Shown: one piece after another, positions 15,748-50,857 of the stretch
How the letters are laid out: every line of letters starts with the position of its first letter
Numbering within the stretch: position 1 is the first letter of the stretch
Source: Thermodesulfobacterium hveragerdense DSM 12571
Lineage (GTDB): Bacteria > Desulfobacterota > Thermodesulfobacteria > Thermodesulfobacteriales > Thermodesulfobacteriaceae
DNA length: 51,098 nucleotides
Reading direction: 5' to 3'
NCBI RefSeq assembly: GCF_000423845.1
Contig: NZ_AUIT01000012.1
Coordinates: forward strand, 1-51,098
Notes under the pieces: generated by a model
Database searches by the model: none
Told to the model about the DNA's origin: nothing
The model's input: the letters and a program-made list of their open reading frames with translations, nothing else
Made by a program: the position numbers and the translations under genes

Positions 15748-16242
15748 TTAGAGTTTGATCTTTTGAAAATAGGGAAATAATATATGGTATTGGGTTAAGA
15801 GATGTTGTGAAATCACCCTTATTTCATCAAGGACAGCCAAAAAGTTAACGTCTCCCTCCCATCTGGGGACTATTTGCAGGTGTAGATGGTCAGGATATCC
15901 AGCTCCTGCAACCTTCCCTAAGTTAAACCCAACGTTAAACCCGTGAGGTTTGAAGACTTCTTTTAGAATCTTGATGGCTTCTTGAGCCATTTTCATCAAA
16001 GCGGTGATCTCATCAGGGGTTAGTTGTTCGAGTTCAGCCACATGTTTTTTGGGAGCTACCAAAAGGTGCCCGGCATTATAAGGGAATTTGTTCATGATCA
16101 CCAAAACAAAAGGATCTCTATAAAGTATAAGCCTTTCTTCATCAGGCAGATTTCCTTCAGGAGGACAAAAAATACAGCCAGGGTCTTTTTTACCTGATAC
16201 GTATTCTCCTCTCCAGGGAGCCCACAAAATTTTTCGTTCCAT
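15748..16242 (-). CDS. HIT-family hydrolase / Ap4A phosphorylase-like
   Basis: 164 residues. The N terminus ILWAPWRGEYV and CIFC are typical of the Ap4A phosphorylase/HIT branch found beside translation or repair genes. The core NKFPYNAGHLLVAPKKH and PDHLHLQIVPRW carries the histidine triad. The last motif position is Gln (H-L-H-L-Q), where simple HIT hydrolases have His; Gln here is known from phosphorylase or transferase branches. Likely substrates are dinucleoside polyphosphates. Transcribed divergently from the flippase gene. Confidence 0.87.
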   Translation of the reverse strand: MERKILWAPWRGEYVSGKKDPGCIFCPPEGNLPDEERLILYRDPFVLVIMNKFPYNAGHLLVAPKKHVAELEQLTPDEITALMKMAQEAIKILKEVFKPHGFNVGFNLGKVAGAGYPDHLHLQIVPRWEGDVNFLAVLDEIRVISQHLLTQYHILFPYFQKIKL

Positions 16243-16349
16243 ATTCCCCCCCTTTCTAAAAACAAGTTTAAGGGTAAAATGATAAATACCTAATCATAAC
16301 ACAAAATAAACGTTTGTAAATTGTTAGGTTTTGATATTTATAACTTTAT

Positions 16350-21721: not shown

Positions 21722-24244
21722 ATGGAGATTTATGAACTACAAACTAAAGAATGTGCTCATTTGAAAGATATCGCCGAGGCTATCTTAGAGGCTCCTTCGG
21801 TAGGAATTCTGATTTATCAGGAAAACATAGTTTATGCTAATAAGTTTTTCTTAGAACTTACCGGATATTCCTTAGAAGAACTAAACAGGATGAGTATTTT
21901 AGATATTTTCACAGCCGAAGAGAAAGAATATCTTAAATCCATAGTAGAAAGAAGGCTTAGAGTGGAAAGGTTTACAAGGGTTTATAACGAATTAAAAATT
22001 TTAAGAAAAACTGGGGAGATAAGGTATACCCTTACTTTTGCCAACACCATCACCTATCAAGGTAAGCCAGCAGGTTTTGTGGTTTTGATAGATATTACCA
22101 GGCAGAAAAGGCTTGAAAACATAGTTTTGATGCTTAGAGAGGTTAACCAGACGATAACCAGTTCCCTAACCGAAGAGGAGGTTTTTGAGAAGATTTGTAA
22201 AAACCTGGTAGAGAAGATAGGGCTTAGGTTTGTTTGGGTAGGGTTTCCTGATTGGGAGACACTACTTATTAAACCTATGTATTACTATGGATATGAGGCA
22301 GGACTTTTTGAAAAAATCAGGGTTTCTGTAAGTGGAGATGTTCCTGAGGGAAGAGGGGCTTTGGGTACAGCATTAAGAGAAAACAGAATTGTCATAATCT
22401 CTGACATAAGAACTGACCCTCGTTTTTATCCTTGGAGAGAAGAGGCTTTGAAGAGGCAGTATCTTTCAGTAGCAGGGATACCTATCTATAAAGATGGTAA
22501 TCCCTATTGTGTGTTAGGGCTTTATGCTAAGGAGCCCAATTTTTTTACCGATGAAACTTTAGGGCTTTTAGAAGAGCTGAGGGGAGACATAGAGTTTGCT
22601 TTAAAGCGGATAGAGGAGATCAAAAATAATGTTATTATCTCTCAGGCTCTTATCAAATCTCCTGCAGCTATAATAGTTTTGGACGAAAAAGGAAGGATAA
22701 CTTTTTGTAATGAAACTGTATCTAAGAGTTGTGGCCTCAGTTTTGAAGAACTTTATGGGAAATCTTTAGAGATATTAGGCTTGCAGGGTCTTGATTATGA
22801 TTTTAATCAAACTTTTTTTCAGGTTATATCACAAGAAGATAAAGAGTTTTCGGATATTTTATTCTGCACCAAGAACAATATTTATTTACAGACTAAGATA
22901 TATCCTTTAAGAATTTCAGAAAAAGAACGCAGGTATCTTTTAATAGGGAGAGATGTTAGTACAGAGAGAGAACTTATCTATAAATTAGAGAAGGTCACCA
23001 CAGAGGATTTACTTACCGGTCTTTTAAACCTTGATGGGCTTGAGAAAAGAGTTAATAAGATTTTGGAAAGAGTGGACGAAGGCTGTTTGATAGTTTTAGA
23101 CATATTCAATTTTGTTTACGTAAACCAAACTTATGGTTTTGAGACAGGAAATAGGATTTTAAAAGAGTTAGGTAATTTTTTTAAAAGTCTTTTTCAAAAA
23201 AGCAATCAATTAACAGCCAGGATCGGATCTGATGAGTTTGCTTGTTTTTTGGAAAAGAAGGAATATCATAATATTCAAGGATTGATAGAGAAGCTTTCTT
23301 TGATAAAAGAAATGGTCTTTAATATAGACGGGCAAGAAATAGCCCTTTCTACAAACATCGGTATTAGTTTTTATCCTCAAGATGGAGGTAATTTTAGGGA
23401 TTTACTCGAAAAGGCATCTCTTGCCTTAAGTGAGGCTAAAAAAGTTGGAGCAGGAGAATTTAGATTTTTTGCTCAATTTATGGAGTTAAAAGCACAGGAG
23501 ATCATTTCTTTAGATTATCTCTTAGAAAAGGCTTTAAAAGAGAATCTTTTTGTTTTTTACTACCAACCTTATTTTAAGGTGGAAGACCTTTCTTTAGCAG
23601 GGTTAGAGGCTTTGGTTAGGATAAAGGTAGATGGTGCGGTTTACACCCCATCACAGTTTATAGATTATCTGGAGAGAAGCAGGTTTTTACCTAAATTTGA
23701 GGAGTGGATGTTTGAGGAGATAAGTAAAAAGATTGAGAGGTTTAGGGTACCTATTTCGGTGAACATTTCTGCCCGTTCTTTTAATAGAGAGGACTTTATC
23801 GAGAGGTTTTTATCGTTTTTTCAACATAAGGAGGTCAGATTAGAGATTACGGAAAGGGTTTTTATAGAAAATATATTATATGCGAAAGAGATCCTAAAAA
23901 GGGTTAAAGAGAAAAATATAAAGGTGATGATAGATGATTTCGGGACCGGGTATTGTGCGTTAAGTTATTTAAGGTTTTTACCGATCGATGTGATAAAAAT
24001 AGATATGAGTTTTATTAAAGATATAATAAAAAATAAGAAAGATAAGGACTTGGTTGAAGTGATAGTACTCTTAGCCCAAAAATTAGGTATAGAGACTTTG
24101 GCTGAGGGGGTTGAAACCCAGGAACAGCTTGATATAATAAAACAGATTGGTTGTACTTACGTACAGGGTTTCTTGTTTGATAAACCCATGCCAGAAGATG
24201 AACTTCTTGTTAGATATCCTTTCATAGCCGGGGTGGCGGAATAG
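21722..24244 (+). CDS. PAS-GAF-PAS-GGDEF-EAL protein, probable c-di-GMP phosphodiesterase
   Basis: 840 residues, no membrane segments. Order: PAS (about 15-128, with ITRQKRLE after it), GAF (about 145-300), second PAS (about 305-420), GGDEF (about 425-590) and EAL (about 600-835). The GGDEF signature is degenerate (RIGSDEF) and probably not a cyclase. The EAL domain keeps EALVR, the NISARSF region, MIDDFGTGY and LAEGVET, and so should hydrolyse c-di-GMP. Redox, light or ligand sensing by PAS and GAF is likely, but no cofactor residues are evident. The last 18 bases lie within tRNA-Leu, so the final residues (AGVAE) are encoded by tRNA sequence. Confidence 0.9.
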   Translation: MEIYELQTKECAHLKDIAEAILEAPSVGILIYQENIVYANKFFLELTGYSLEELNRMSILDIFTAEEKEYLKSIVERRLRVERFTRVYNELKILRKTGEIRYTLTFANTITYQGKPAGFVVLIDITRQKRLENIVLMLREVNQTITSSLTEEEVFEKICKNLVEKIGLRFVWVGFPDWETLLIKPMYYYGYEAGLFEKIRVSVSGDVPEGRGALGTALRENRIVIISDIRTDPRFYPWREEALKRQYLSVAGIPIYKDGNPYCVLGLYAKEPNFFTDETLGLLEELRGDIEFALKRIEEIKNNVIISQALIKSPAAIIVLDEKGRITFCNETVSKSCGLSFEELYGKSLEILGLQGLDYDFNQTFFQVISQEDKEFSDILFCTKNNIYLQTKIYPLRISEKERRYLLIGRDVSTERELIYKLEKVTTEDLLTGLLNLDGLEKRVNKILERVDEGCLIVLDIFNFVYVNQTYGFETGNRILKELGNFFKSLFQKSNQLTARIGSDEFACFLEKKEYHNIQGLIEKLSLIKEMVFNIDGQEIALSTNIGISFYPQDGGNFRDLLEKASLALSEAKKVGAGEFRFFAQFMELKAQEIISLDYLLEKALKENLFVFYYQPYFKVEDLSLAGLEALVRIKVDGAVYTPSQFIDYLERSRFLPKFEEWMFEEISKKIERFRVPISVNISARSFNREDFIERFLSFFQHKEVRLEITERVFIENILYAKEILKRVKEKNIKVMIDDFGTGYCALSYLRFLPIDVIKIDMSFIKDIIKNKKDKDLVEVIVLLAQKLGIETLAEGVETQEQLDIIKQIGCTYVQGFLFDKPMPEDELLVRYPFIAGVAE

Positions 24245-30282: not shown

Positions 30283-32481
30283 ATGAAATGGTCAAGAAGA
30301 GATTTTTTAAAGGTAGTTGCTGCTTCTGGAGGAATTGGAGTTATAGGGGCTACACAGGTAGATAGATTATTAGGTTTAGGGCGTAAACCCGAAGGTAAAC
30401 CGGTATATATTCCTACGGTTTGTGAGATGTGTTTTTGGAGATGTGGGGTTATGGCAAAGGTAGTAGACGGAAAGGTGGTTAAGCTTGACGGACATCCTGC
30501 ACATCCTCAATCAAGAGGTAAGCTCTGTGCCAGAGGTCATGGAGGAATAGGTCTTCTTTATGACCCAGACAGGCTAAAACATCCTTTAATAAGGGTTGGA
30601 CAAAGAGGAGAGGGTAAGTTTAAAAAGGCTTCCTGGGATGAAGCTTTAAATTATGTAGCAGAAAAGATGCTCAAGATTAAAGAAACCTATGGTCCGGAGT
30701 CTGTAGCCCTCTTTACCCATGGAACTATATCTACTTATTTTGTTCATCTTTTATGGGCCTATGGTTCTCCTAATTTGGGTATGCCTTCTTATGCCCTTTG
30801 TAGAGGGGCAAGAGACATAGCCTTTAAACTTACCTTTGGTGCACCTGTGGGTAATCCAGAAAGGGTGGATTTAAAGAATAGTAAAGTTATCGTATTGATG
30901 GGGTTTCATATAGGAGAAAATGCACATAACTCCATGTGTCAGGAGTTTGCAGAGGCAGTCGGAAAGGGAGCTACAGTTATCGTAGTAGACCCGAGGTTTT
31001 CTACCGCAGCAAGCAAAGCTAAATACTGGCTTCCTATCAAGCCAGCTACCGACCTTGCTTTGCTTTTGGCCTGGATAAATGTAATCATAACAGAGGGGCT
31101 CTATGATAAAGAGTATGTAGCTAAATATACCGAAGGTTTTGATAAACTGGCTGAAGCAGTGAAAGAATATACTCCTCAATGGGCTGAAAAAGAAACAGAC
31201 ATCCCTGTTTCTTTGATCATAGAGACTGCAAGAATTATGGGAAAAAACAAACCTTCTGTCTTAATTCATCCTGGAAGACATACTGCCTGGTATGGAGATA
31301 ATACTCAAAGAGTAAGAGCGATAGCGATCCTTACTGCCCTTTTAGGAGCTTATGGAAGGCCAGGGGGTATATATCTTCCACCAAAGAATCCTTTGTCTGA
31401 GTATGGTTTTGGAGACTTTTGTGGAGTACCTTATCCAGAACATCAAAAACCTGAGATAAATAAAGGGCCTTACCCTTTTACCGAAGAAGAAGGGGTTATC
31501 CCTGAGATTATAAAGGCAACCCTTACGGAGAAACCCTATCCTATAAAGGGATGGTTGATTACAGGGACTAATCTTATTAAATCTACTCCTAATCAGAGGG
31601 ATACCATCGAGGCTATTAAAAAGTTGGACCTTGTAGTAGCGGTTGATATGATGCCCTTTGATCATGTGCTTTATGCAGATGTGGTTCTCCCAGAGTGTAC
31701 CTACCTAGAAAGATATGATGATATTTTTGTGGTAAAGGAAAGAAGCATAGGGTTAGCCTTGAGACAACCGGTTGTTAACCCGATGTATGATACCAAGCCT
31801 GGTTGGTGGATAGCAAAAGAGTTAGGAGTAAGGCTTGGTTTAAAGGAATATTTTCCTTATAATGATTTTGAGGATTTTCTTAAGGCTAAATGTGAGGCTC
31901 TTGGATTAAATTTTGAAGAGCTTAAACAGAAAGGTTATATAGAGATACCAGACACAGCCAGTCCTTACATCGATGAGGCTTTTGAGTTTAAATTTAAAAC
32001 TCCTTCTGGTAAGATAGAACTCTATAGCAAGCAATTAGAGGAAGCAGGTTTTCCTTCTATTCCTACCTATACCAAGCATGAACAACCGCCTCAAGGTTAT
32101 TTCAGACTTATTTATGGTAGGGTACCTGTGCATACCTTTTCACGGACTACTAACAATCCTTCTTTATGGGAGCTGATGAAAGAAAATGCTGCTTGGGTTA
32201 ACGCTAAGGTAGCTAAGAAGTTAGGACTTAAAAACGGGGATTATGTGGTCCTTGTTAACCAGGATGGAGTTAAAAGCAATAAAGTTAAGCTAAAGGTTAC
32301 CGAAAGGATTAGGCCAGATTGTGTTTATGTCCCTCATGGATTTGGAAGTTTTTCTCCTATGCTAAAAAGAGCTTATTTAAACGGTGCAGACGACCAACAG
32401 CTGATAACCAGATATGCTGTAGACCCGATTTCTGGAAGTGTGGGAATGAGGGTTAATTTTGTTAAGATAGAGAAGGCTTAA
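30283..32481 (+). CDS. psrA: Tat-exported molybdopterin oxidoreductase catalytic subunit (polysulfide/thiosulfate reductase type)
   Basis: 732 residues. A twin-arginine signal is present (SRRDFLK, residues 4-10). A [4Fe-4S] site follows with Cys 47, 50, 54 and 82. Cys173 (in YALCRGARD) is the likely metal ligand, as in the PsrA/PhsA branch of the DMSO reductase family. The C terminus has the dinucleotide-binding domain (PVHTFSRTTNNPSLWE; GDYVVLVNQDG). It is periplasmic. With the next gene it forms a membrane-bound quinone-linked complex. Polysulfide, thiosulfate or another oxoanion could be the substrate, and Mo or W could be the metal. A strong AAGGAGG precedes the ATG. Confidence 0.85.
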   Translation: MKWSRRDFLKVVAASGGIGVIGATQVDRLLGLGRKPEGKPVYIPTVCEMCFWRCGVMAKVVDGKVVKLDGHPAHPQSRGKLCARGHGGIGLLYDPDRLKHPLIRVGQRGEGKFKKASWDEALNYVAEKMLKIKETYGPESVALFTHGTISTYFVHLLWAYGSPNLGMPSYALCRGARDIAFKLTFGAPVGNPERVDLKNSKVIVLMGFHIGENAHNSMCQEFAEAVGKGATVIVVDPRFSTAASKAKYWLPIKPATDLALLLAWINVIITEGLYDKEYVAKYTEGFDKLAEAVKEYTPQWAEKETDIPVSLIIETARIMGKNKPSVLIHPGRHTAWYGDNTQRVRAIAILTALLGAYGRPGGIYLPPKNPLSEYGFGDFCGVPYPEHQKPEINKGPYPFTEEEGVIPEIIKATLTEKPYPIKGWLITGTNLIKSTPNQRDTIEAIKKLDLVVAVDMMPFDHVLYADVVLPECTYLERYDDIFVVKERSIGLALRQPVVNPMYDTKPGWWIAKELGVRLGLKEYFPYNDFEDFLKAKCEALGLNFEELKQKGYIEIPDTASPYIDEAFEFKFKTPSGKIELYSKQLEEAGFPSIPTYTKHEQPPQGYFRLIYGRVPVHTFSRTTNNPSLWELMKENAAWVNAKVAKKLGLKNGDYVVLVNQDGVKSNKVKLKVTERIRPDCVYVPHGFGSFSPMLKRAYLNGADDQQLITRYAVDPISGSVGMRVNFVKIEKA

Positions 32482-32497
32482 AGGGAGGTGACATAAA

Positions 32498-34045
32498 ATG
32501 CCAAGATATGCCATGGTTATAGATGTAGAAAAATGTGTAGGGTGTATGGCTTGTGTTATAGCGTGTAAAAAGGAGAATAAGGTAGCAGATGGTTATTTTA
32601 GGACAAGGGTGGTAGAAGAGGTTAGAGGAGAGTTCCCCAACCTCAGGATGGAGCTTAGGTCAGAGCTTTGTAATCATTGTGAGATTGCTCCTTGTATAGA
32701 TGCCTGTCCTACCAGAGCTTCTCACAGGGCAAAAGATGGAACCGTTCAAATAGACCATAAAAAGTGTATTGGATGTAAGGCCTGTATTTTAGCTTGCCCT
32801 TATGACGCAAGATACATTCGTCCTGATGGAACAGCTGATAAGTGTACCTTTTGTCAGCACAGATTAAAAGAAGGGAAAACACCTGCTTGTGTAGAAACTT
32901 GTTTAGGAAAATCGAGGATTTTTGGAGATTTAGATGACCCTGAAAGTGAGGTGTCTAAACTTTTAAGGACCTACGATGCTGCTGTAAGGCTCGAATGGGC
33001 AGGTACTAAACCTCGTGTTTTTTACGTTAACAAAAGATTTCCAGGGGGGGTTTTAACCATGGTAGAAATAACCATTACCGGGACCAACTCTATCACCTTT
33101 CCTCATTTTGAGGTATGGGACTGGAGGATAGTGTTATATCTATTTTTAGGAGGATTGGCTGCAGGAACTTTGGTTATGTGTTCTATCGCCAACCTTAGGC
33201 CTACCAAAACAGTAGAAGAGTTAGCCAAATGTGTAAGAGCTCCATTGATTGCTTTTGTCATGCTTGCTGTAGGTGCTCTTTTTATCATCCTTGAAATTAA
33301 AGCCCCATGGCATCTTTACTGGGGATATTTGACCTTTCAGCCTCTTTCTCTTATGTCCTGGGGTACTTGGGGTGTTCCTTTAGTTTTGTTTTTTAATGCC
33401 CTTTATATTCTTGCTGTGTTGCCTGAAGAACAAAAACATTATCTAAAGTTTGAATTTTTAAAAAGATTTTCAGATAGGTTAAAACCAAGAATGAGACTGA
33501 TTGCCAAAATAAACTTTGTGGCAGGTATCTTTTTGGCTATTTATACTGGTATTCTTTTAGCCTCTTTTTTGGCTGTTCCGTTATGGAATAACGCGACCCT
33601 CCCTATTTTGTTTTTGGTTTCTGCTCTTTCAGCAGGAGCAGCTTTGATAGTTATCATAGCCAAGGATGTAGAAATCAAGTATCTTTTTACAAAAATAGAC
33701 GTATGGCTTATCGTCATAGAACTTTTGCTTATACCTCTTTACTTTTATGGGTTATATGTTTCTTCTGCCCCTTACAAAAGGGCGTTAGAACCTTTCTTTT
33801 CGTTTAAAGGAGAGTATTTTATTTATACCCTTGCTTTAATATTGATCTTTTTATTTTTACCTCTTGCCTTACGTATGAAAATCGGAGAAATTACCGAGTT
33901 TGAAGAGCACGGACTTCCTTATCAGTTTACCAGAGCTCAGATTTTGAGGATGAACATAGCCGCTATACTGGTAATCACAGGAACTCTAATCTTGAGAGGG
34001 GCTATAGTTTATGCTGGACAACTTATTAAGCTGAGTATATATTAA
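32498..34045 (+). CDS. Four-cluster ferredoxin subunit and NrfD/PsrC-type membrane subunit, read here as one fused frame
   Basis: 515 residues as one frame. Residues 1-185 are the electron-transfer subunit (PsrB type) with four Cys4 groups: CVGCMACVIACK, CNHCEIAPCIDACP, CIGCKACILACP and a fourth with CTFC and CVETC, giving four [4Fe-4S] clusters. Residues 188-515 are an NrfD/PsrC-like quinone-reacting membrane subunit with about eight helices (VWDWRIVLYLFLGGLAAGT). The junction is a seven-G run at 33044-33050. With six Gs the first part would end FPGGF and stop (TAA), and the second would start at ATG 33059 with the G run as its ribosome binding site. So these are probably two genes, psrB and psrC, or a genuine recent fusion. 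Confidence 0.85.
   Translation: MPRYAMVIDVEKCVGCMACVIACKKENKVADGYFRTRVVEEVRGEFPNLRMELRSELCNHCEIAPCIDACPTRASHRAKDGTVQIDHKKCIGCKACILACPYDARYIRPDGTADKCTFCQHRLKEGKTPACVETCLGKSRIFGDLDDPESEVSKLLRTYDAAVRLEWAGTKPRVFYVNKRFPGGVLTMVEITITGTNSITFPHFEVWDWRIVLYLFLGGLAAGTLVMCSIANLRPTKTVEELAKCVRAPLIAFVMLAVGALFIILEIKAPWHLYWGYLTFQPLSLMSWGTWGVPLVLFFNALYILAVLPEEQKHYLKFEFLKRFSDRLKPRMRLIAKINFVAGIFLAIYTGILLASFLAVPLWNNATLPILFLVSALSAGAALIVIIAKDVEIKYLFTKIDVWLIVIELLLIPLYFYGLYVSSAPYKRALEPFFSFKGEYFIYTLALILIFLFLPLALRMKIGEITEFEEHGLPYQFTRAQILRMNIAAILVITGTLILRGAIVYAGQLIKLSIY
33044..33061 (+). promoter_or_regulatory. Seven-G tract with downstream ATG at the psrB/psrC junction
   Basis: GGGGGGG (33044-33050) is followed after 8 bases by ATG 33059, an ideal Shine-Dalgarno distance. 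Losing one G would place a TAA (33055-33057 in this numbering) just before that ATG, restoring separate genes. The tract can therefore act as a ribosome binding site and as a slip site. Confidence 0.6.
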
Positions 34046-42887: not shown

Positions 42888-43496
42888 ATGCTTAACGAAA
42901 TAAAGTTACCAAAGATAGAGTTAGAAGATTTTTTAGGAATAGACCTTGCAGGTTCTCCTAAAAAGCCTACAGGGTTAGCCTACATTAAGGATAAGGTTTT
43001 GCTCACCCAATTGGTTTATGAAGATGAGCTACTTCTTGAAAAAGCGGTAAAGTTTAAATATGTTTATATAGATGCCCCTTTAAGTTTGCCTTATGGTAGG
43101 TGTGATATAGAACAACGAAATGAGTATCATTTTAGAGAATGCGATCTGAAACTTCGAGAGTTGAAGATTAAATTTTTTCCCATTACCCTTGGAGGTATGA
43201 GAAAACTTACTGAACGAGGTATGAAACTAAGAGATTTCTTAATAGCTAAGGATATCGAGGTTTACGAGGTCTTTCCCGGAGCGTTTTATGATGTTTATCA
43301 TATAAAAAGAAAAGATAAAAAGGCTATTTTAGACTTTTTTAAAAAGTTTTTGTCTCACTTAGAGGTTTTTATAGAAAATAGGCCCTATACGCAAGACGAA
43401 CTTGATAGCATAGCTTGTTTATTAACAGGAATTTTGCAAAAAACGGGGCTGGCTTTAGAATTAAAAGGTATAGACGGATGTATCCATAATCCCTAA
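42888..43496 (+). CDS. DUF429-family protein (RNase H-like fold predicted)
   Basis: 202 residues. FLGIDLAGSPKKPTG at the N terminus, YIDAPLSLPYGR, and ELDSIACLLTGILQ near the end fit the DUF429 pattern, in which conserved Asp/Glu residues (GIDLA, DAPLS, DELDS) suggest a nuclease-like fold. No activity is proven for the family. The usual Cys/Arg block appears as FRECDLKLR. The following gene is a sirtuin, 35 bases later. Confidence 0.78.
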   Translation: MLNEIKLPKIELEDFLGIDLAGSPKKPTGLAYIKDKVLLTQLVYEDELLLEKAVKFKYVYIDAPLSLPYGRCDIEQRNEYHFRECDLKLRELKIKFFPITLGGMRKLTERGMKLRDFLIAKDIEVYEVFPGAFYDVYHIKRKDKKAILDFFKKFLSHLEVFIENRPYTQDELDSIACLLTGILQKTGLALELKGIDGCIHNP

Positions 43497-44412: not shown

Positions 44413-44485
44413 CTTGCTTTTCAAGCAATTTTCAAAGGTTTCAAGAAATCCCTCCCATGGATTTTGGCGGAAATTCGTGTCCTTT

Positions 44486-44506
44486 TTGCCTGCATTTTGC
44501 AGGCAA
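44486..44506 (+). repeat. Perfect short hairpin
   Basis: TTGCCTGCA and TGCAGGCAA with a 3-base loop, a 9-base perfect stem, in the intergenic region after tRNA-Arg. No T run follows on the plus strand, so it is not a typical terminator. It may be a mobile-element end or RNA structure. Confidence 0.6.
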
Positions 44507-44536
44507 TCTTCAAACAATCAAAATTCCCTGCCATTT

Positions 44537-44721
44537 TTACCTGTAAGCCTCATTAAATTTACTCTTAAGCTAATTAGCCTTTGCCTGCTGTTCTTTTTGA
44601 CGAGAATAAAGATCTAAAAGGTAGTACTCTATAATGTCTTTCAAAATATGTTCAACACTGTCGTTTTCTGTTTGTCGAATTTATAGTGGCAAAGGTTTTT
44701 CAGTCGTGTAATCTTAAGCAT
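44537..44721 (-). pseudogene. Remnant of a small unidentified gene
   Basis: The minus strand reads MLKITRLKNLCHYKFDKQK from an ATG at 44721, then needs one frame change near 44680 to continue as NDSVEHILKDIIEYYLLDL, then YSRQKEQQAKAN, a TAG, then LKSKFNEAYR to a TAA near 44537. The amphipathic, coding-like composition suggests a decayed gene of about 60 residues. I do not recognise the family. Confidence 0.4.
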
Positions 44722-45018
44722 TTTGTCTCTCTAAAAGATTTTATTAAGAGCTTGTTTGGCTTTCGAAGAAGGTTAATTTTCTTATGGATTTTTTGTGAAT
44801 ACTGGTAGTTGATTCTAAAGATGAAGCTATATTGATTGCAACTGCTGTTCTTATTCCGTCAGACAATAAAAATCATTTTATATAGGTTAAAAATCTATTA
44901 GTGTATCCAAAAAGGTCAAAAACAAAACAAAGTCTTTGCGGTTAAAAATTTTCTTCTATATTGAAAACAAAGTGGGGATGCTCGACAGTAAATATAAATT
45001 AAAAAAAATTTTTATCTA
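44722..45018. other. AT-rich gap between tRNA-Arg remnants and the secreted block
   Basis: I see no intact gene. A plus-strand stretch near 44800-44890 encodes ILVVDSKDEAILIATAVLIP between stops, which has coding-like composition and could be another broken gene. Nothing else is recognisable. Confidence 0.4.
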
Positions 45019-45044
45019 TTGACAAGAAAAAAGGATTATATAAT
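45019..45044 (+). promoter_or_regulatory. Candidate strong promoter for the secreted block
   Basis: TTGACA (45019-45024) and TATAAT (45039-45044) both match consensus perfectly, but the spacer is only 14 bases, shorter than the usual 16-18. It lies 60 bases before the first gene of the block. Confidence 0.5.
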
Positions 45045-45104
45045 TTTATTTTTATAGGAATTTAACTAATAAATTAAAAATTTTTCCAAATAGGGGGTAA
45101 GACT

Positions 45105-45389
45105 ATGAATAAGGTGTTTTTTAAAATTCTATTTTGTTTTGTTGCTTTTATGTTAGTGTTTCTTAGTGGAAGTGTTAGCATGGCTGAAGAAAGACCGATG
45201 CCTGACATGGATAAGTCTGATAATCATAAAGAGCATCACAAAAAAATGCATTGTAAAAAGGTATGTGTAGTATGGGGGACAGAGGAGGAATGTAAAATAG
45301 TTGGACCTGATAGTGAAGCTAAAACCTGCGTTCTACGTCCTGTATGTAAAAAATATGACACAATATGTCAGGAGGGACCTATACTATAG
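45105..45389 (+). CDS. Secreted six-cysteine protein, copy 1
   Basis: 94 residues. Signal peptide about 1-27 (ends SVSMA, cut before EERP). A His/Asp-rich spacer (DNHKEHHKKMH) follows, then the family core: C-x3-C, VW, EEC, CKIVGPDSEAKTC (10-11 residues between Cys), PVCKKYDTIC. Six cysteines suggest three disulfides. The His/Met-rich spacer could bind metal. Paralogous to 49391-49639 (CKIVGPDSE shared word for word) and, more distantly, to 49677-49931. No known family recognised. Ribosome binding site GGGGG about 6 bases before the ATG. Confidence 0.8.
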   Translation: MNKVFFKILFCFVAFMLVFLSGSVSMAEERPMPDMDKSDNHKEHHKKMHCKKVCVVWGTEEECKIVGPDSEAKTCVLRPVCKKYDTICQEGPIL

Positions 45390-45409
45390 AAATTTGCAGG
45401 AGGTTAACG

Positions 45410-45676
45410 ATGAAAAAAAAGAGTTTTATTCTAAGTTTTTGTTTGTTAATATGTATATTTTTAATAAAAGACCTTAAAGCTACCAACGATACAAATCAAT
45501 CGATTAGTAGTTCAACAAGTACGGTATCTTCGAATAATTATGAAATCAATAGTTCAACGAGTTCCTCAAAAAACACAGACAACCAAAACAAAGATTTCAA
45601 GGAAAGACTTAGAGGTTCGCCAAAATATAGTGTTCCTAATATTAACCGTAAAGGCCAGTATGGTCACGGTAAATAA
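45410..45676 (+). CDS. Small secreted Ser/Thr/Asn-rich protein
   Basis: 88 residues from ATG 45410, chosen because AGGAGG lies at 45398-45403; the longer frame upstream overlaps the previous gene. Signal peptide about 1-24 (FILSFCLLICIFL). The mature part has runs of Ser, Thr and Asn (SISSSTSTVSS, NSSTSSS), then a basic tail with RLRGSPKYSVPNINRKGQYG. Low complexity, no cysteine in the mature part. No function is visible. Confidence 0.72.
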   Translation: MKKKSFILSFCLLICIFLIKDLKATNDTNQSISSSTSTVSSNNYEINSSTSSSKNTDNQNKDFKERLRGSPKYSVPNINRKGQYGHGK

Positions 45677-45699
45677 CATTAATTTTTAGGAGGTGGATT

Positions 45700-45996
45700 A
45701 TGAAAAACTTAAAACTTTTGGTTGGTTTAGCAGGATTAGTAGTATTTTTATCATCCGGGTTTTGTATAGCTAAAGATTCTGCTTATGATCAGGCTTCAGG
45801 AACTTCCGGTAGTTCTTGGCAAGCAGAAAAAGATTCAGCGCATCCTGGAAATTATAAAGACCTAAATAGCTCTTGGGAAAGAGCAAGACACGAGGCAGGT
45901 CAAGGTTTTGACACCTCAAGGCCTTCAAACTTAAGTGGAGGAGGCATGCAATACATTCCAACACCTACTCCTCAAATTGATAAAGAGTTGAAATGA
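45700..45996 (+). CDS. Small secreted hydrophilic protein
   Basis: 98 residues. Signal peptide about 1-25 (GLAGLVVFLSSGFCIA, cut before KDSA). The mature part is Ser/Gly-rich and without cysteine, with the repeated words KDSAYDQASG and KDSAHPGNYKDL and a Pro-rich end YIPTPTPQ. GGAGGTGG lies before the ATG. No known family recognised. It is followed by the relic of a six-cysteine gene. Confidence 0.72.
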   Translation: MKNLKLLVGLAGLVVFLSSGFCIAKDSAYDQASGTSGSSWQAEKDSAHPGNYKDLNSSWERARHEAGQGFDTSRPSNLSGGGMQYIPTPTPQIDKELK

Positions 45997-46030
45997 TAAA
46001 AATTTAACAAAAGAAGAAGGTAAAAAACGT

Positions 46031-46230
46031 GAGGAATTTTATTTTCTTTAGAAACCGATAATAAAACTTTTCAACCTAAAAAGAAAAGGGAAAAAGTGTG
46101 TACTCGATGGAAAAACTAAAAAGAGTTTAAACAAAATGAAGTTCATCCTGGAGAACAAATTTTTACTTCTTACTATATACAAAGTCTGTAGTACAAAGTC
46201 TGTAGTGAATATAAAGAAAAATGTAATTGA
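46031..46230 (+). pseudogene. Decayed copy of the six-cysteine secreted family
   Basis: One frame reads GILFSLETDNKT, KKKREKVCTRWKN, stop, KEFKQNEVHPGEQIFTSYY, a stop at the tandem repeat, then YKVCSEYKEKCN and TGA 46228-46230. It aligns end to end with the mature part of the protein at 49677 (ILFASESDNKT, KVCAEW, FRPGEQICTIY, YVEMC). The signal peptide is gone, two stops interrupt it, and at least three Cys positions are changed (C to R or F). Confidence 0.8.
46179..46206 (+). repeat. 14-base perfect tandem duplication
   Basis: ACAAAGTCTGTAGT occurs twice in a row inside the relic gene. The first copy creates the in-frame TAG, so this duplication probably contributed to its loss. Confidence 0.85.
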
Positions 46231-46261
46231 TAACATTTTAAAATTTTGAAGGGGAAAATCT

Positions 46262-47302
46262 ATTAATACCAAAGTTTGGATCTATCAAGTTTTGTTGCTA
46301 ACTTTTTTTCTTCTCCTTTTACATAATTTACGATCATTCTCTGCTCCAGCCGAACTTTACGAAAAATTATTAAATTCAATAACTGCTGAATTAGAAGAAA
46401 TTTCTGAAAATCCTGATAGAATGAAAGAATATATACTGAAGCAACAAGATTTAACTATCCGAGATAAATACGGAGATACTTTACTTCACTATGCGGTCAG
46501 GAAAAATTATAAAGAAATCATTAAACTTTTATTAGAAAAAGGGATGGATATTAATATACCCAACAATAGAGGAGAAACTCCTTTACATAATGCGATACTT
46601 TATGCACGAGACATAACTACCATTTCTTTTCTTATTCAAAACAAGGCTGATTGTGTTTACAGAGATGGTTATGGGAAAATACCTTTATACAATTTTGTTT
46701 TTTATCCAGAAACTGTAGATCTAAAGATTATAGAAATTTTCAATCTTTGTGTACAAAAAGGTTTTAAGGTTAAAGAAAATATCGATGTAAAAACCTTAAA
46801 TGAATTTTTAAGTAGAAGGCACAAAAAAGTGGGTTTGATGTTAATCGATTGGGGTGTGCCAGTTGATGAAAAAACACTGGAAGAAGCTTTAATAAATGGA
46901 TATGAAGATGTAGTAGACGTTTTAGTGCAAAGAGGTATTAGCCCAGTAAAGAAGAACTTCATTCGTTACGTTTGTACTAATAGCGATTCGGTAAAGCTTG
47001 TTAAATTACTTGTTGAAAAAGGTAATGTGCCCACAGAAGAGGATTTAGACTTCTGTGTTTTTAAGGGAAGAAAAAATATAGCTTTGTTTTTAAAGGAAAC
47101 TCTGGAAAAAACTCAAGGGAAAAAGATAGATATTAAAAAGAGATGTTATTTAATACCTCAAGTGGGACCCTGTAAAGGACTATTTTGGGGGGCATATTTT
47201 ATACCCGGTTTAAATAAGTGTGAAAAATTTTTTTACGGTGGATGTGATGATGTGGTACCTTTTAATTCGGTTGAAGCTTGTAAAAACATTTGCATAGATT
47301 AA
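46262..47302 (+). CDS. Secreted ankyrin-repeat protein with a C-terminal Kunitz/BPTI-type domain
   Basis: 346 residues if it starts at ATT 46262, which lies 7 bases after AAGGGG and gives a normal signal peptide (NTKVWIYQVLLLTFFLLLL, cut near SFSAPA). No ATG is available in the right place; TTG 46292 is the alternative and lacks the basic N terminus. About two to three ankyrin repeats cover residues 65-150 (YGDTLLHYAVRKNYKEIIKL; NRGETPLHNAI), with weaker ones to about 280. The last 52 residues are a Kunitz domain with Cys 295, 304, 320, 328, 340 and 344. The spacings 9-16-8-12-4 compare with 9-16-8-13-4 in BPTI. GPCKG puts Lys at P1 and YGGC is conserved. It is likely exported and able to inhibit a trypsin-like protease. 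Kunitz domains are rare in bacteria. Confidence 0.82.
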   Translation: MNTKVWIYQVLLLTFFLLLLHNLRSFSAPAELYEKLLNSITAELEEISENPDRMKEYILKQQDLTIRDKYGDTLLHYAVRKNYKEIIKLLLEKGMDINIPNNRGETPLHNAILYARDITTISFLIQNKADCVYRDGYGKIPLYNFVFYPETVDLKIIEIFNLCVQKGFKVKENIDVKTLNEFLSRRHKKVGLMLIDWGVPVDEKTLEEALINGYEDVVDVLVQRGISPVKKNFIRYVCTNSDSVKLVKLLVEKGNVPTEEDLDFCVFKGRKNIALFLKETLEKTQGKKIDIKKRCYLIPQVGPCKGLFWGAYFIPGLNKCEKFFYGGCDDVVPFNSVEACKNICID

Positions 47303-47323
47303 AAATTTGAGAGGTCTATAAAT

Positions 47324-49315
47324 ATGAGATCGAGTTCTTTAATCATATCTATAATCCTTTTGTGTCTCACTTTTTTTAACATTAACCCTTCTATTGCAAG
47401 TCATAAGAAAATTGATAGTGATTTAGTTAACAACTTTACTTATCGTTTAACCTTTGGAAACCGTACTGTTACCTTAAAAGATGGCAAATACGAACGACCC
47501 TTTCCTGATTACCTGAAAGTTTGGGTCGAAAGATTTCTGATTAAAGATCTGAACGGAGACGGCATGCCTGATGCAGTGGTTGTTCTTGGTCAGTCTGGTG
47601 GTGGAAGTGGAATTTTCTATGAGTTAACAGCCTTGATTTCTAAAACTGATGACACTTTTTTGCAAACCAATTCTATCGTTTTAGGTGATAGAGTAAAAAT
47701 AGAAAACCTCAAAGTGGTAAATAGACCAATTTTTCCAACAGAGAGATTAGAAATCCTTCTTGATATATTGACCCACAAAGAAAGTGATCCGTCTTGCTGT
47801 CCATCTAACAAAGAACTTCTTTGTTTTGCTTTTCTTGGTATTAAGCTTATACAATGTGAAGAAGCACCGGTAGTTAAAAAACCTGCCATCTATCTTTACC
47901 ATGAAAAACCAACCGGAGTAAAAGTTAACCTTAACATTAAAGGGACTATTACAGATAGTATTCCAGAATATAAAACTGGCTGGGAGGTTAGGGTTACGCC
48001 TGATGGTAAAATCGATGGAAAATATGACTATCTTTTTTATGAAGCCCAGCTTGAAGAGACAGTTAAACTTCTTGATGAAGGATGGATCGTTCCTTATTGT
48101 AACCTTGAAAACTGGTTTGATGAATATCTTCCACAGATGGGACTGAACAAAAAAGAAATTAAAGATTTTAAGGATTACTGGCTAAAAGCTTTATCACCTG
48201 CAAGGTACTATATAATCAAAATGGTTGATAGAGAATTTTTGGATAAACACCTGAAACTCAGTATCACACCAGAGCCTCAAACACTCATCAGGGTTATTCT
48301 TTGTTTTGAAGCGGTGGATGAATACAGGGATATCAAACCACCAAAATTACAACCGATCGAAAGAAAGGGTTTTACCGCAGTTGAATGGGGAGGAATTTCC
48401 AAAGATCCCGCAATTTCTGACACTAAAACGAAGTTTGAGTATTCTTTTCTGGCTATGGATACAGGAATACTGGTATTAAGAGCAGTTGAGGTTAAAGAAC
48501 ACAGGATATCCATAAAAGTGAACACCAATGGTTGCACAGATAAAAAAACTGTCAAAGCTGAAGTAAATAAAACTTACAAAATAGACAATCAAGTTCCAAC
48601 CTACGAAGTAGTGTTTAAAAGGACAGTATCTGATAACTGTAAAGCTTTCTTGCCTGAGGGAACAGTTTTGGTTTATGACCTTCAGGAAGAATTTGGTTTG
48701 AAGATGCCGTATACAATGGAAATAAAAAATCCTGTGATTCCGATGGTTAGAGATGAACCATTCTTTATATTTTCTAACCTCTATCAACAGACAGGACCGA
48801 TAAACATTAGCATTAAGGTTGATCTCGGTACAGAACTTTTGAAAAAAAGACTTATTGATGCAACCATAAAAGCTATAAAGATGGAGATAGAAAGATATAA
48901 AGCATCGCAGCATCCTGATAAACAACAAAAAATTGCCTATTTAGAGAATGAGTTAAAGAGATTTGAAAGTATGGGAACAATGGATTACAAGCTAACCAAA
49001 CCTGAACAAACTTCAAAAGATGTTCTTGAGGTATCTAACTTTGGTCCACTAATGCCACCTGTTGAAAGAGAGGTTGAAGTGATAGTAACTAAGCCTTGTG
49101 ATTACGGTTCGATACTTGAAGTAGTTGGGATGACCAGGTCTGGACCATTTTATCATATCGCAGGAATACAGGGAGATGATTTAAGTATATTACAACCAGG
49201 AAAATACAAACTAAAGCTTTATCTTGTCTATAAAAGAGAATATTTTGGACCAATAGGAAATTATTATGTTTTTATTGATTCGGTTGAAAGGGTAGATGAA
49301 GAAAACATACGATAA
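47324..49315 (+). CDS. Large secreted multi-domain protein of unknown function
   Basis: 663 residues. Signal peptide about 1-26 (IISIILLCLTFFNINPSIAS). An N-terminal beta region contains LIKDLNGDGMPDAVVVLGQS, similar to Ca-binding Asp-rich repeats. From about 185, KKPAIYLYHEKPTGVKVNLN then EYKTGWEVRVTPDGKI and YDYLFYEAQL belong to a domain seen in secreted bacterial proteins ('KPVIYLYP' type) of unknown role. A third region (about 400-470) has NGCTDKKTVKAEV and DNCKAFLPEG, also seen in such proteins. A helical part (about 500-560) and a C-terminal beta part follow. It starts 21 bases after the Kunitz gene. Confidence 0.75.
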   Translation: MRSSSLIISIILLCLTFFNINPSIASHKKIDSDLVNNFTYRLTFGNRTVTLKDGKYERPFPDYLKVWVERFLIKDLNGDGMPDAVVVLGQSGGGSGIFYELTALISKTDDTFLQTNSIVLGDRVKIENLKVVNRPIFPTERLEILLDILTHKESDPSCCPSNKELLCFAFLGIKLIQCEEAPVVKKPAIYLYHEKPTGVKVNLNIKGTITDSIPEYKTGWEVRVTPDGKIDGKYDYLFYEAQLEETVKLLDEGWIVPYCNLENWFDEYLPQMGLNKKEIKDFKDYWLKALSPARYYIIKMVDREFLDKHLKLSITPEPQTLIRVILCFEAVDEYRDIKPPKLQPIERKGFTAVEWGGISKDPAISDTKTKFEYSFLAMDTGILVLRAVEVKEHRISIKVNTNGCTDKKTVKAEVNKTYKIDNQVPTYEVVFKRTVSDNCKAFLPEGTVLVYDLQEEFGLKMPYTMEIKNPVIPMVRDEPFFIFSNLYQQTGPINISIKVDLGTELLKKRLIDATIKAIKMEIERYKASQHPDKQQKIAYLENELKRFESMGTMDYKLTKPEQTSKDVLEVSNFGPLMPPVEREVEVIVTKPCDYGSILEVVGMTRSGPFYHIAGIQGDDLSILQPGKYKLKLYLVYKREYFGPIGNYYVFIDSVERVDEENIR

Positions 49316-49390
49316 AGTAATTTTATTTGGAAAGAAAAACAGGTTGACTAAGAAAAATAAAAGGGGGACAAAAAGCAGGAGGTGATGAAA

Positions 49391-49639
49391 ATGATGCTTT
49401 TTAAAGTTTTATTTTTCTGTATAACATTAACACTATTTAGTAGTAGTATTGTTGTTGCAGAAGTAGACTGTAAAACAGAATGTGTAGAATGGGAAACAAA
49501 GGAAGAGTGTAAAATAGTTGGTCCTGATAGTGAGTCTAAGATTTGTGAGCTTCACACTGTATGTAAAAGATATGAAAAAAGATGTAAGGAACCGAGGCTT
49601 AAGTTCGATAAAAATAGATCAGACAAAAAGTCAGAATAA
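49391..49639 (+). CDS. Secreted six-cysteine protein, copy 2
   Basis: 82 residues from ATG 49391, at the right distance from AGGAGG (49377-49382); earlier GTG and ATG codons overlap or sit too close to that site. Signal peptide about 1-22 (ends SSIVVA). Core C-x3-C, EW, EEC, CKIVGPDSESKIC, TVCKRYEKRC, six cysteines. A Lys/Asp-rich tail follows. Closest relative is the protein at 45105. It lacks the His-rich spacer of that copy. Confidence 0.8.
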   Translation: MMLFKVLFFCITLTLFSSSIVVAEVDCKTECVEWETKEECKIVGPDSESKICELHTVCKRYEKRCKEPRLKFDKNRSDKKSE

Positions 49640-49676
49640 AAATTGGAATGAAATCTGATACTTTAGGGGGAAGGTT

Positions 49677-49931
49677 ATGAAAAAATTTCTGTTTTTACTT
49701 TTTCTTTTAGTAAATTCATTTGTTTTAGTTGTTAATAACAGAATTTTATTTGCCTCGGAATCTGATAACAAGACTTCTGAGTCTAAGAAGGAATGTGAAG
49801 AGATAGTAAAGGTTTGTGCTGAATGGGGACCTCCAAAGAAAGAGTGTGCACCTAATCCATTTCGTCCTGGAGAACAAATTTGTACCATATATAGAGAATG
49901 TATTAAGTACGTAGAAATGTGTAGATTTTAA
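49677..49931 (+). CDS. Secreted six-cysteine protein, copy 3
   Basis: 84 residues with signal peptide about 1-27 (FLFLLFLLVNSFVLVV; cut near FASES). Core: KECEEIVKVC, AEW, KKEC, a longer Pro-rich loop (APNPFRPGEQ), ICTIYREC, IKYVEMC. It keeps all six cysteines, the Trp and the Tyr of the other two copies, but differs in loop length. The relic at 46031 derives from this subtype. GGGGGAAGG precedes the ATG. Confidence 0.8.
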   Translation: MKKFLFLLFLLVNSFVLVVNNRILFASESDNKTSESKKECEEIVKVCAEWGPPKKECAPNPFRPGEQICTIYRECIKYVEMCRF

Positions 49932-49984
49932 ACAAGATTAGTTAGTAAAGTGTTATTATAATTGAAAAACCTGGGAGGTGTGTT

Positions 49985-50284
49985 ATGAAACATCCAATAG
50001 TTTGTGTTTTTATTATTGCTGGGTTGTTTTTTGCATGTCAGGCACAGGCTACTTTCAGTCAAGTGCAAGATCCTACAACCAATAGTCAAATTTTTATAAG
50101 TTCTACTCTGCCTTGGAATCCTGAAAGAGCTCAATACTATGACGACAAACATGACAAAAAAGATCGTGAACGTCTTAGACCTAAGCAAGATAAGCAAGAA
50201 GATAGAGATAGACAGAGACTTCCTAATCCTCCAGAGCGACCTTTTGATAACGTGAATCCTCATCACGAAGAGTATAGAGATTAA
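49985..50284 (+). CDS. Small secreted highly charged protein
   Basis: 99 residues. Signal peptide about 1-22 (VCVFIIAGLFFACQAQA); a Cys near the end of this segment (FACQ) could also make it a lipoprotein. The mature part is dominated by Asp, Lys, Arg and Pro (DDKHDKKDRERLRPKQDKQ, DRDRQRLPNPPERP) and likely disordered. GGGAGGTG precedes the ATG. No known family. Confidence 0.7.
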   Translation: MKHPIVCVFIIAGLFFACQAQATFSQVQDPTTNSQIFISSTLPWNPERAQYYDDKHDKKDRERLRPKQDKQEDRDRQRLPNPPERPFDNVNPHHEEYRD

Positions 50285-50287
50285 TTA

Positions 50288-50857
50288 ATGAAAAGTTTCT
50301 ACAGAATAATTCCAATAGAAAGAAGTTCTTTTTCTCGTATTTATGAAGTTTTTTCTCCGGATGGTTTAAAATTAGCCAAAATAACTCAGAGTGCTTCAGA
50401 ATACGATACCATAGTAACTTCTGAAGGAAAAAGATATCTTGCAGGAGGAGATGTTGACATAAATTTATGGATGGAATGCCCCGATGGTACAGTTTATGAG
50501 GTAAAAAGACCAGACGGGATTCAAATAGGGTACACTTATTTTATTGAGTTTAACGGTAGAGAAATCATTTTAAAAGGTAGCTTAATATATGAAAATAATG
50601 AGTTTATTGGAGAGATTAAAAAAGAACCACGAAAATGGCCTGAAGGATTGATAAACAAGCTAAAAGCATTTTTCAGATTAAGAGAATGGACTTTGAAAGT
50701 AAAAACTGATATTCCAGAACACATTTTGCTTTTTATAATCTGGATAACACTGACTATTGATTTGCAAACTCAATCCGGGACACTTGTCAAGAGAATTGTG
50801 TCTCCTTATAAAATCTCTTTACAAACATTTGCCTCAATTCGTATAAAGCAGACTTAA
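50288..50857 (+). CDS. LURP-one/Tubby-like protein, 3' end running into the IS element
   Basis: 189 residues as read. Residues 1-115 show repeated beta hairpins (IYEVFSPDGLKLAKI, ECPDGTVYEVKRPDG, FNGREIILKGSL, NNEFIGEIKKE), like LURP-one/Tub_2 proteins related to phospholipid scramblases; the resemblance is modest. Residues near 138-155 (EHILLFIIWITLTID) form a membrane helix. After about residue 160 the frame enters the IS256 terminus (from about 50780) and ends at 50857 within it, so the true C terminus may have been lost. It starts 3 bases after the previous gene. It has no signal peptide. Confidence 0.6.
   Translation: MKSFYRIIPIERSSFSRIYEVFSPDGLKLAKITQSASEYDTIVTSEGKRYLAGGDVDINLWMECPDGTVYEVKRPDGIQIGYTYFIEFNGREIILKGSLIYENNEFIGEIKKEPRKWPEGLINKLKAFFRLREWTLKVKTDIPEHILLFIIWITLTIDLQTQSGTLVKRIVSPYKISLQTFASIRIKQT

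Follow-up and report, generated by a model that had tools for sequence, protein, structure and literature searches.

Does Thermodesulfobacterium hveragerdense DSM 12571 encode a fused PsrB-PsrC protein, or has a single base joined two ordinary genes? The stretch of DNA analysed here (the window; 51,098 nucleotides) is the whole of contig 11 in a 42-contig draft of a 1.73-Mb genome, and as assembled it places two subunits of one operon in a single open reading frame (ORF) (table 1). A first-pass annotation described this 515-residue frame as joining a ferredoxin part and an NrfD-type part at GGGGGGG, an arrangement confirmed by the ORF and its Pfam matches, and explained it by a one-base indel that might reflect a sequencing error, a slip-prone phase-variable site, programmed slippage or a true new fusion. 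We conclude that the locus is very probably a standard psrABC-type operon in which one assembly carries a one-base insertion without a role, the product of error or of chance mutation.

Table 1. Features of the psrABC-type operon in the window.
Feature	Coordinates	Strand	Description
psrA/phsA-type molybdopterin subunit	30283..32481	+	732 aa; N-terminal twin-arginine motif SRRDFLKV
Fused ORF as assembled	32498..34045	+	515 aa: PsrB residues 1-184, PsrC 188-515
PsrB part (ferredoxin)	32498..33049	+	Fold match; congener PsrB ends FPGGF-TAA
Run of seven Gs	33044-33050	+	Covers the final Gly-Gly codons of psrB; probable Shine-Dalgarno site for psrC
PsrC/NrfD-type membrane subunit	33059..34045	+	328 aa from its own ATG; predicted N-out/C-out

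The components of a Psr/Phs-type complex (CISM) are all encoded here. The catalytic subunit was recognized by Pfam matches to Molybdopterin, Molydop_binding and Molybdop_Fe4S4 and by a Tat signal, the twin-arginine motif being read directly in the sequence. A tetracubane ferredoxin subunit is indicated by Fer4_11 (residues 51-144 of the 515-aa ORF) and by a full-length match to Thermus thermophilus PsrB (2vpw_B; 53% identity in the fold match, phmmer E 2.4e-64); no signal peptide of its own is evident in the PsrB part. The membrane subunit matches NrfD (residues 206-509; E 2e-32) and has eight long helices in the predicted structure; PMC2500031 gives the helix count of NrfD-type subunits as eight in Psr and five in Salmonella Phs. 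Judged from sequence, the substrate could be either polysulfide or thiosulfate, PhsA being the top NCBIfam match of the catalytic subunit at 583.8 bits, under the curated cut-off of 694. Structure prediction for the fused chain reached moderate confidence only (pLDDT 71, with the PsrB part poor), and confidence was lowest at residues 180-205, the PsrB/PsrC joint, as for a flexible link.

The reading frame depends entirely on the length of the G run. Translation of lengths 4 to 9 yielded a fusion with four or seven Gs (514/515 aa), a PsrB ending in PGGF or PGGGF with six or nine (185/186 aa) and an out-of-frame product with five or eight (203/204 aa). With six Gs PsrB terminates in FPGGF-TAA and psrC has its own start at ATG 33059, as the first-pass annotation had worked out; that start falls 2 nt past the stop, as three congeners bear out. 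The ATG at 33059 shares the fusion frame and lies 8 nt downstream of the run. It is the position of the run that is notable; a seven-G run itself is unremarkable. The window has two, where dinucleotide shuffles predict 5.3; the genome has 21, and three relatives have between 18 and 28 apiece. The other such run in the window (16246-16252, minus strand) lies immediately before the start codon (ATG) of gene 15748-16242 and is interrupted in the relative G013 by substitutions, with no indel.

To place the junction among relatives, we surveyed 59 related genomes, 13 of them from Thermodesulfobacterium. Three of these 13 (G001, G010 and G013) possess an orthologous operon, 92-99% identical in amino acid sequence per subunit, and all three have exactly six Gs, a PsrB ending FPGGF-TAA and a psrC ATG two bases further on; in G010 the surrounding blocks are only about 80-85% identical in DNA. 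In the next nearest orthologues (L043-L047, from contigs of Thermodesulfovibrio type; 67-85% per subunit) the two genes are separate, overlap at TGATG and encode the same Gly-Gly as GGAGGT. Outside the genus, split orthologues either have GGAGGT or lack the Gly-Gly altogether. Across 39 loci, 32 are split (one, L070, with a different gene order, and two, L040 and L012, lying on one contig), six have no PsrC match and only the window is fused, so that its fusion recurs in none of the three congeners and none of the 32 callable other loci. The first-pass explanation by a one-base indel is thereby borne out, and these loci include no relative fused without a G run, which would have spoken against it: every callable locus other than the window is split. 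Open frames of 656-689 aa in some family members looked like candidate natural fusions, and the six regions examined resolved into separate genes. Since the congeners are split with six Gs and distant orthologues are split too, it is the seven-G form that is derived.

The final Gly-Gly codons of psrB pair with the 16S tail in both their GGGGGG and their GGAGGT forms, so the conserved function of the tract is most likely to bind ribosomes for psrC from within psrB. That tail, GGATCACCTCCTTT, occurs once in the genome and has the usual form. Its predicted duplex is about -11 kcal/mol whether the run has six Gs or seven, and -11.5 with GGAGGT; random 22-mers from the window have a median of -3.7. 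This fits the earlier suggestion of a ribosome site for the ATG at 33059. The seventh G spares both this site and the ATG; PsrC alone could therefore still be made. What is lost, through removal of the psrB stop, is free PsrB.

The account we favour starts from a psrABC-type operon of the ordinary kind: psrB and psrC are normally separate genes with two bases between them, the psrC ribosome site being embedded in the end of psrB as GGGGGG in Thermodesulfobacterium and as GGAGGT in Thermodesulfovibrio. One extra G in a single assembly removes the psrB stop and joins the frames; it is probably either a mistake of base calling or assembly or an insertion that arose recently by chance in the strain sequenced, with no role in either case.

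Comparison with the closest relative, G013, shows how isolated the break is. Of 36 window genes, psrBC alone has its match spread over two frames, and one other differs at its start only. Along the 140 kb aligned to G013, few uncompensated frameshifts fall in the middle of an ORF, so the break in psrBC is a local event. Within the window, the frameshifts confined to this genome (140 kb against G013 and G001) are the G at 33050 and, at 43484, one surplus C; on contig C4 the same alignment contains one gene with two shifts, shifted in G001 too, a deletion of 46 bases close to where a gene starts, and minor differences towards the ends of genes. The extra C, in gene 42888-43496 and 10.4 kb from the G run, has no counterpart in any of the three congeners and turns the shared tail GCIIIP... 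into GCIHNP-stop, shortening a 209-aa protein at its C-terminus. Other features of the window were noted as well. The region 44421-50778 is missing from the G013 collinear block, and outside that block a bacterial gene (46292-47302) combines ankyrin repeats with a Kunitz/BPTI domain. In G013 the matches to the two contig ends (1-321 and 50778-51098) are separated by only about 1 kb. A PAS-GAF-GGDEF-EAL gene (21722-24244) is intact in the window and in G013 and shifted in G001.

Homopolymer lengths bear on whether the extra G is real. For runs picked by their length in this assembly (G000), with substituted runs and changed flanks excluded, G/C runs of five or more were equal in length in 31 of 32 comparisons with G013 and 40 of 42 with G001, and A/T runs in 1365 of 1378 and 1261 of 1267, respectively. 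A generally homopolymer-inflated assembly is ruled out by these near-uniform lengths, and the consistency, in arguing against an assembly that is error-prone throughout, slightly favours a real mutation. That the strain itself recently gained one base (+1), by an insertion that is neutral or harmful and was perhaps acquired in culture, has not quite an even chance of being correct: genes do break in these genomes, as the GGDEF-EAL gene shifted only in G001 illustrates, and homopolymers mutate faster than other sequence (PMC2831843), although such an insertion would alter a respiratory subunit. An error in sequencing or assembly, with the strain itself carrying six Gs, falls a little further below an even chance. 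The seven-G state is unique to this draft while all three congeners have six, and a second singleton one-base insertion lies nearby; against this, nearly all other homopolymers over 140 kb match the relatives' lengths. The facts fit either single local event, and we give the two nearly equal weight. Error or chance mutation is what remains of the causes first proposed; phase variation and programmed slippage find no support, and a true fusion is very unlikely.

Phase variation would have cells with six and seven Gs toggle between free and tethered PsrB. The frame arithmetic would allow it, and the psrC start is kept in both states, but the run is fixed at six in three congeners and is not a run in distant orthologues, seven-G runs are enriched in neither window nor genome, and the product is presumably not a surface-exposed antigen; we consider such a switch very unlikely. 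Slimmer still is the chance that the seventh G is both real and reversible and that the tract tunes assembly of the respiratory complex, six-G cells supplying free PsrB and seven-G cells tethered PsrB plus free PsrC from the intact ribosome site.

A working fusion has to be judged against the topology of the complex. In the window PsrC, loops 1, 3, 5 and 7 hold 20 K+R against four in loops 2, 4 and 6, which predicts N-out, and charge counts predict the same for 33 of 33 split homologues, a set that includes near-identical relatives and seven more distant NrfD systems (L127, L128, L135-L137, L139 and L140). This count omits six loci in which PsrC found no match at 1e-5 (L059, L061, L062, L065, L132 and L133), and L040 (same contig as L012), L068-L074, L134 and L138 also fall outside it. 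An N-out PsrC agrees with the topology of DmsC. Near 23 of the 33 split pairs there is an ORF of 550 aa or more with a twin-arginine motif; the ORF is not in view in L011-L013, L041 and L064, and none of that length was seen near the pair in L127, L128 and L135-L137. Tat-less ferredoxin subunits are exported together with a Tat-bearing partner. As PsrA has the twin-arginine motif and PsrB no signal, PsrB presumably exits the cytoplasm with PsrA. The quinone site of the PsrC/NrfD family is placed on the periplasmic side by PMC5928083 and PMC6303296. Tied to an N-out PsrC, a PsrB without an export signal would have to cross with PsrC; if the seventh G is real, the tie would for this reason be likelier to hinder than to help the complex in its export and assembly.

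Other members of the phylum do have genuine PsrB-PsrC fusions, which makes a fusion possible in principle. A search of 395 genomes recovered seven Fer4_11-NrfD fusions (L142-L148), each a single ORF of 509-533 aa; L126 and L129-L131 are the same genes as in four of these. All seven are predicted N-in, with the charge pattern reversed relative to the window, and the downstream gene lacks a twin-arginine motif in all six cases in view; in two loci Pfam identifies that gene as a molybdopterin oxidoreductase. Their ferredoxin part ends near residue 178 (about 198 in L148) and their NrfD part starts at residue 229-253, compared with 206 in the window, leaving a linker of about 50-70 residues against 28. 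L142-L148 are thus probably cytoplasm-facing Psr-like complexes, and in the sample searched natural fusions turned up only with complexes whose predicted orientation is towards the cytoplasm, as far as charge counts in one phylum can indicate. No title or opening of an abstract that we found concerned NrfD or PsrB-PsrC fusions.

The window departs from this feature set, with its 20 : 4 N-out charge ratio and Tat-type PsrA. Because natural fusions accompany predicted cytoplasmic complexes, the opposite of the operon in the window, a useful fusion is unlikely here, and on sequence grounds a working PsrBC protein seems unlikely too. The seven fusions in the same phylum lend an adaptive PsrB-PsrC fusion in this lineage some precedent, but with the orthologues split and the natural examples differing in predicted orientation, partner and linker, the true new fusion once suggested has only a slender chance. 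The same features, N-out PsrC, Tat-type PsrA and natural fusions of the opposite kind, leave the proposed switch of the complex between periplasm and cytoplasm unsupported. Least probable of all is programmed slippage of polymerase or ribosome giving both products: a run of identical bases does adjoin the psrB stop, but split orthologues outside the genus (e.g. L043-L047) have no conserved slippery run, and the Shine-Dalgarno role already explains the one seen here. With six Gs in the congeners and no run in distant split orthologues, the idea of a slip-prone site, phase-variable or programmed, has no support.

We therefore return to a standard operon with an insertion that probably has no role. 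Where the end of one gene contains the Shine-Dalgarno site of the next, that site can turn into a homopolymer, in which a one-base change merges two annotated proteins, and annotators should not count the psrBC of the window as a gene fusion. The control set of natural fusions is more useful than the window finding; its complexes, predicted to face the cytoplasm, match the export logic. Homopolymer frameshift alleles and phase-variable tracts resemble the window in that a one-base change in a run shifts the frame; unlike phase-variable tracts, the run here shows no sign of changing its length repeatedly or reversibly. The natural fusions likewise have Fer4_11 followed by NrfD in one frame, and differ from the window in their longer linker, predicted N-in orientation and Tat-less downstream gene. 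The PsrABC polysulfide/thiosulfate reductase operons of Thermus thermophilus (2vpw) and Wolinella share with the window the order A-B-C, a Tat-type PsrA, a ferredoxin PsrB and an eight-helix NrfD-type PsrC, whereas B and C form one ORF in the window assembly only. Closest of all are the operons of the Thermodesulfobacterium congeners G001, G010 and G013, in which the junction is the same and six Gs, in place of the seven of the window, separate two genes.
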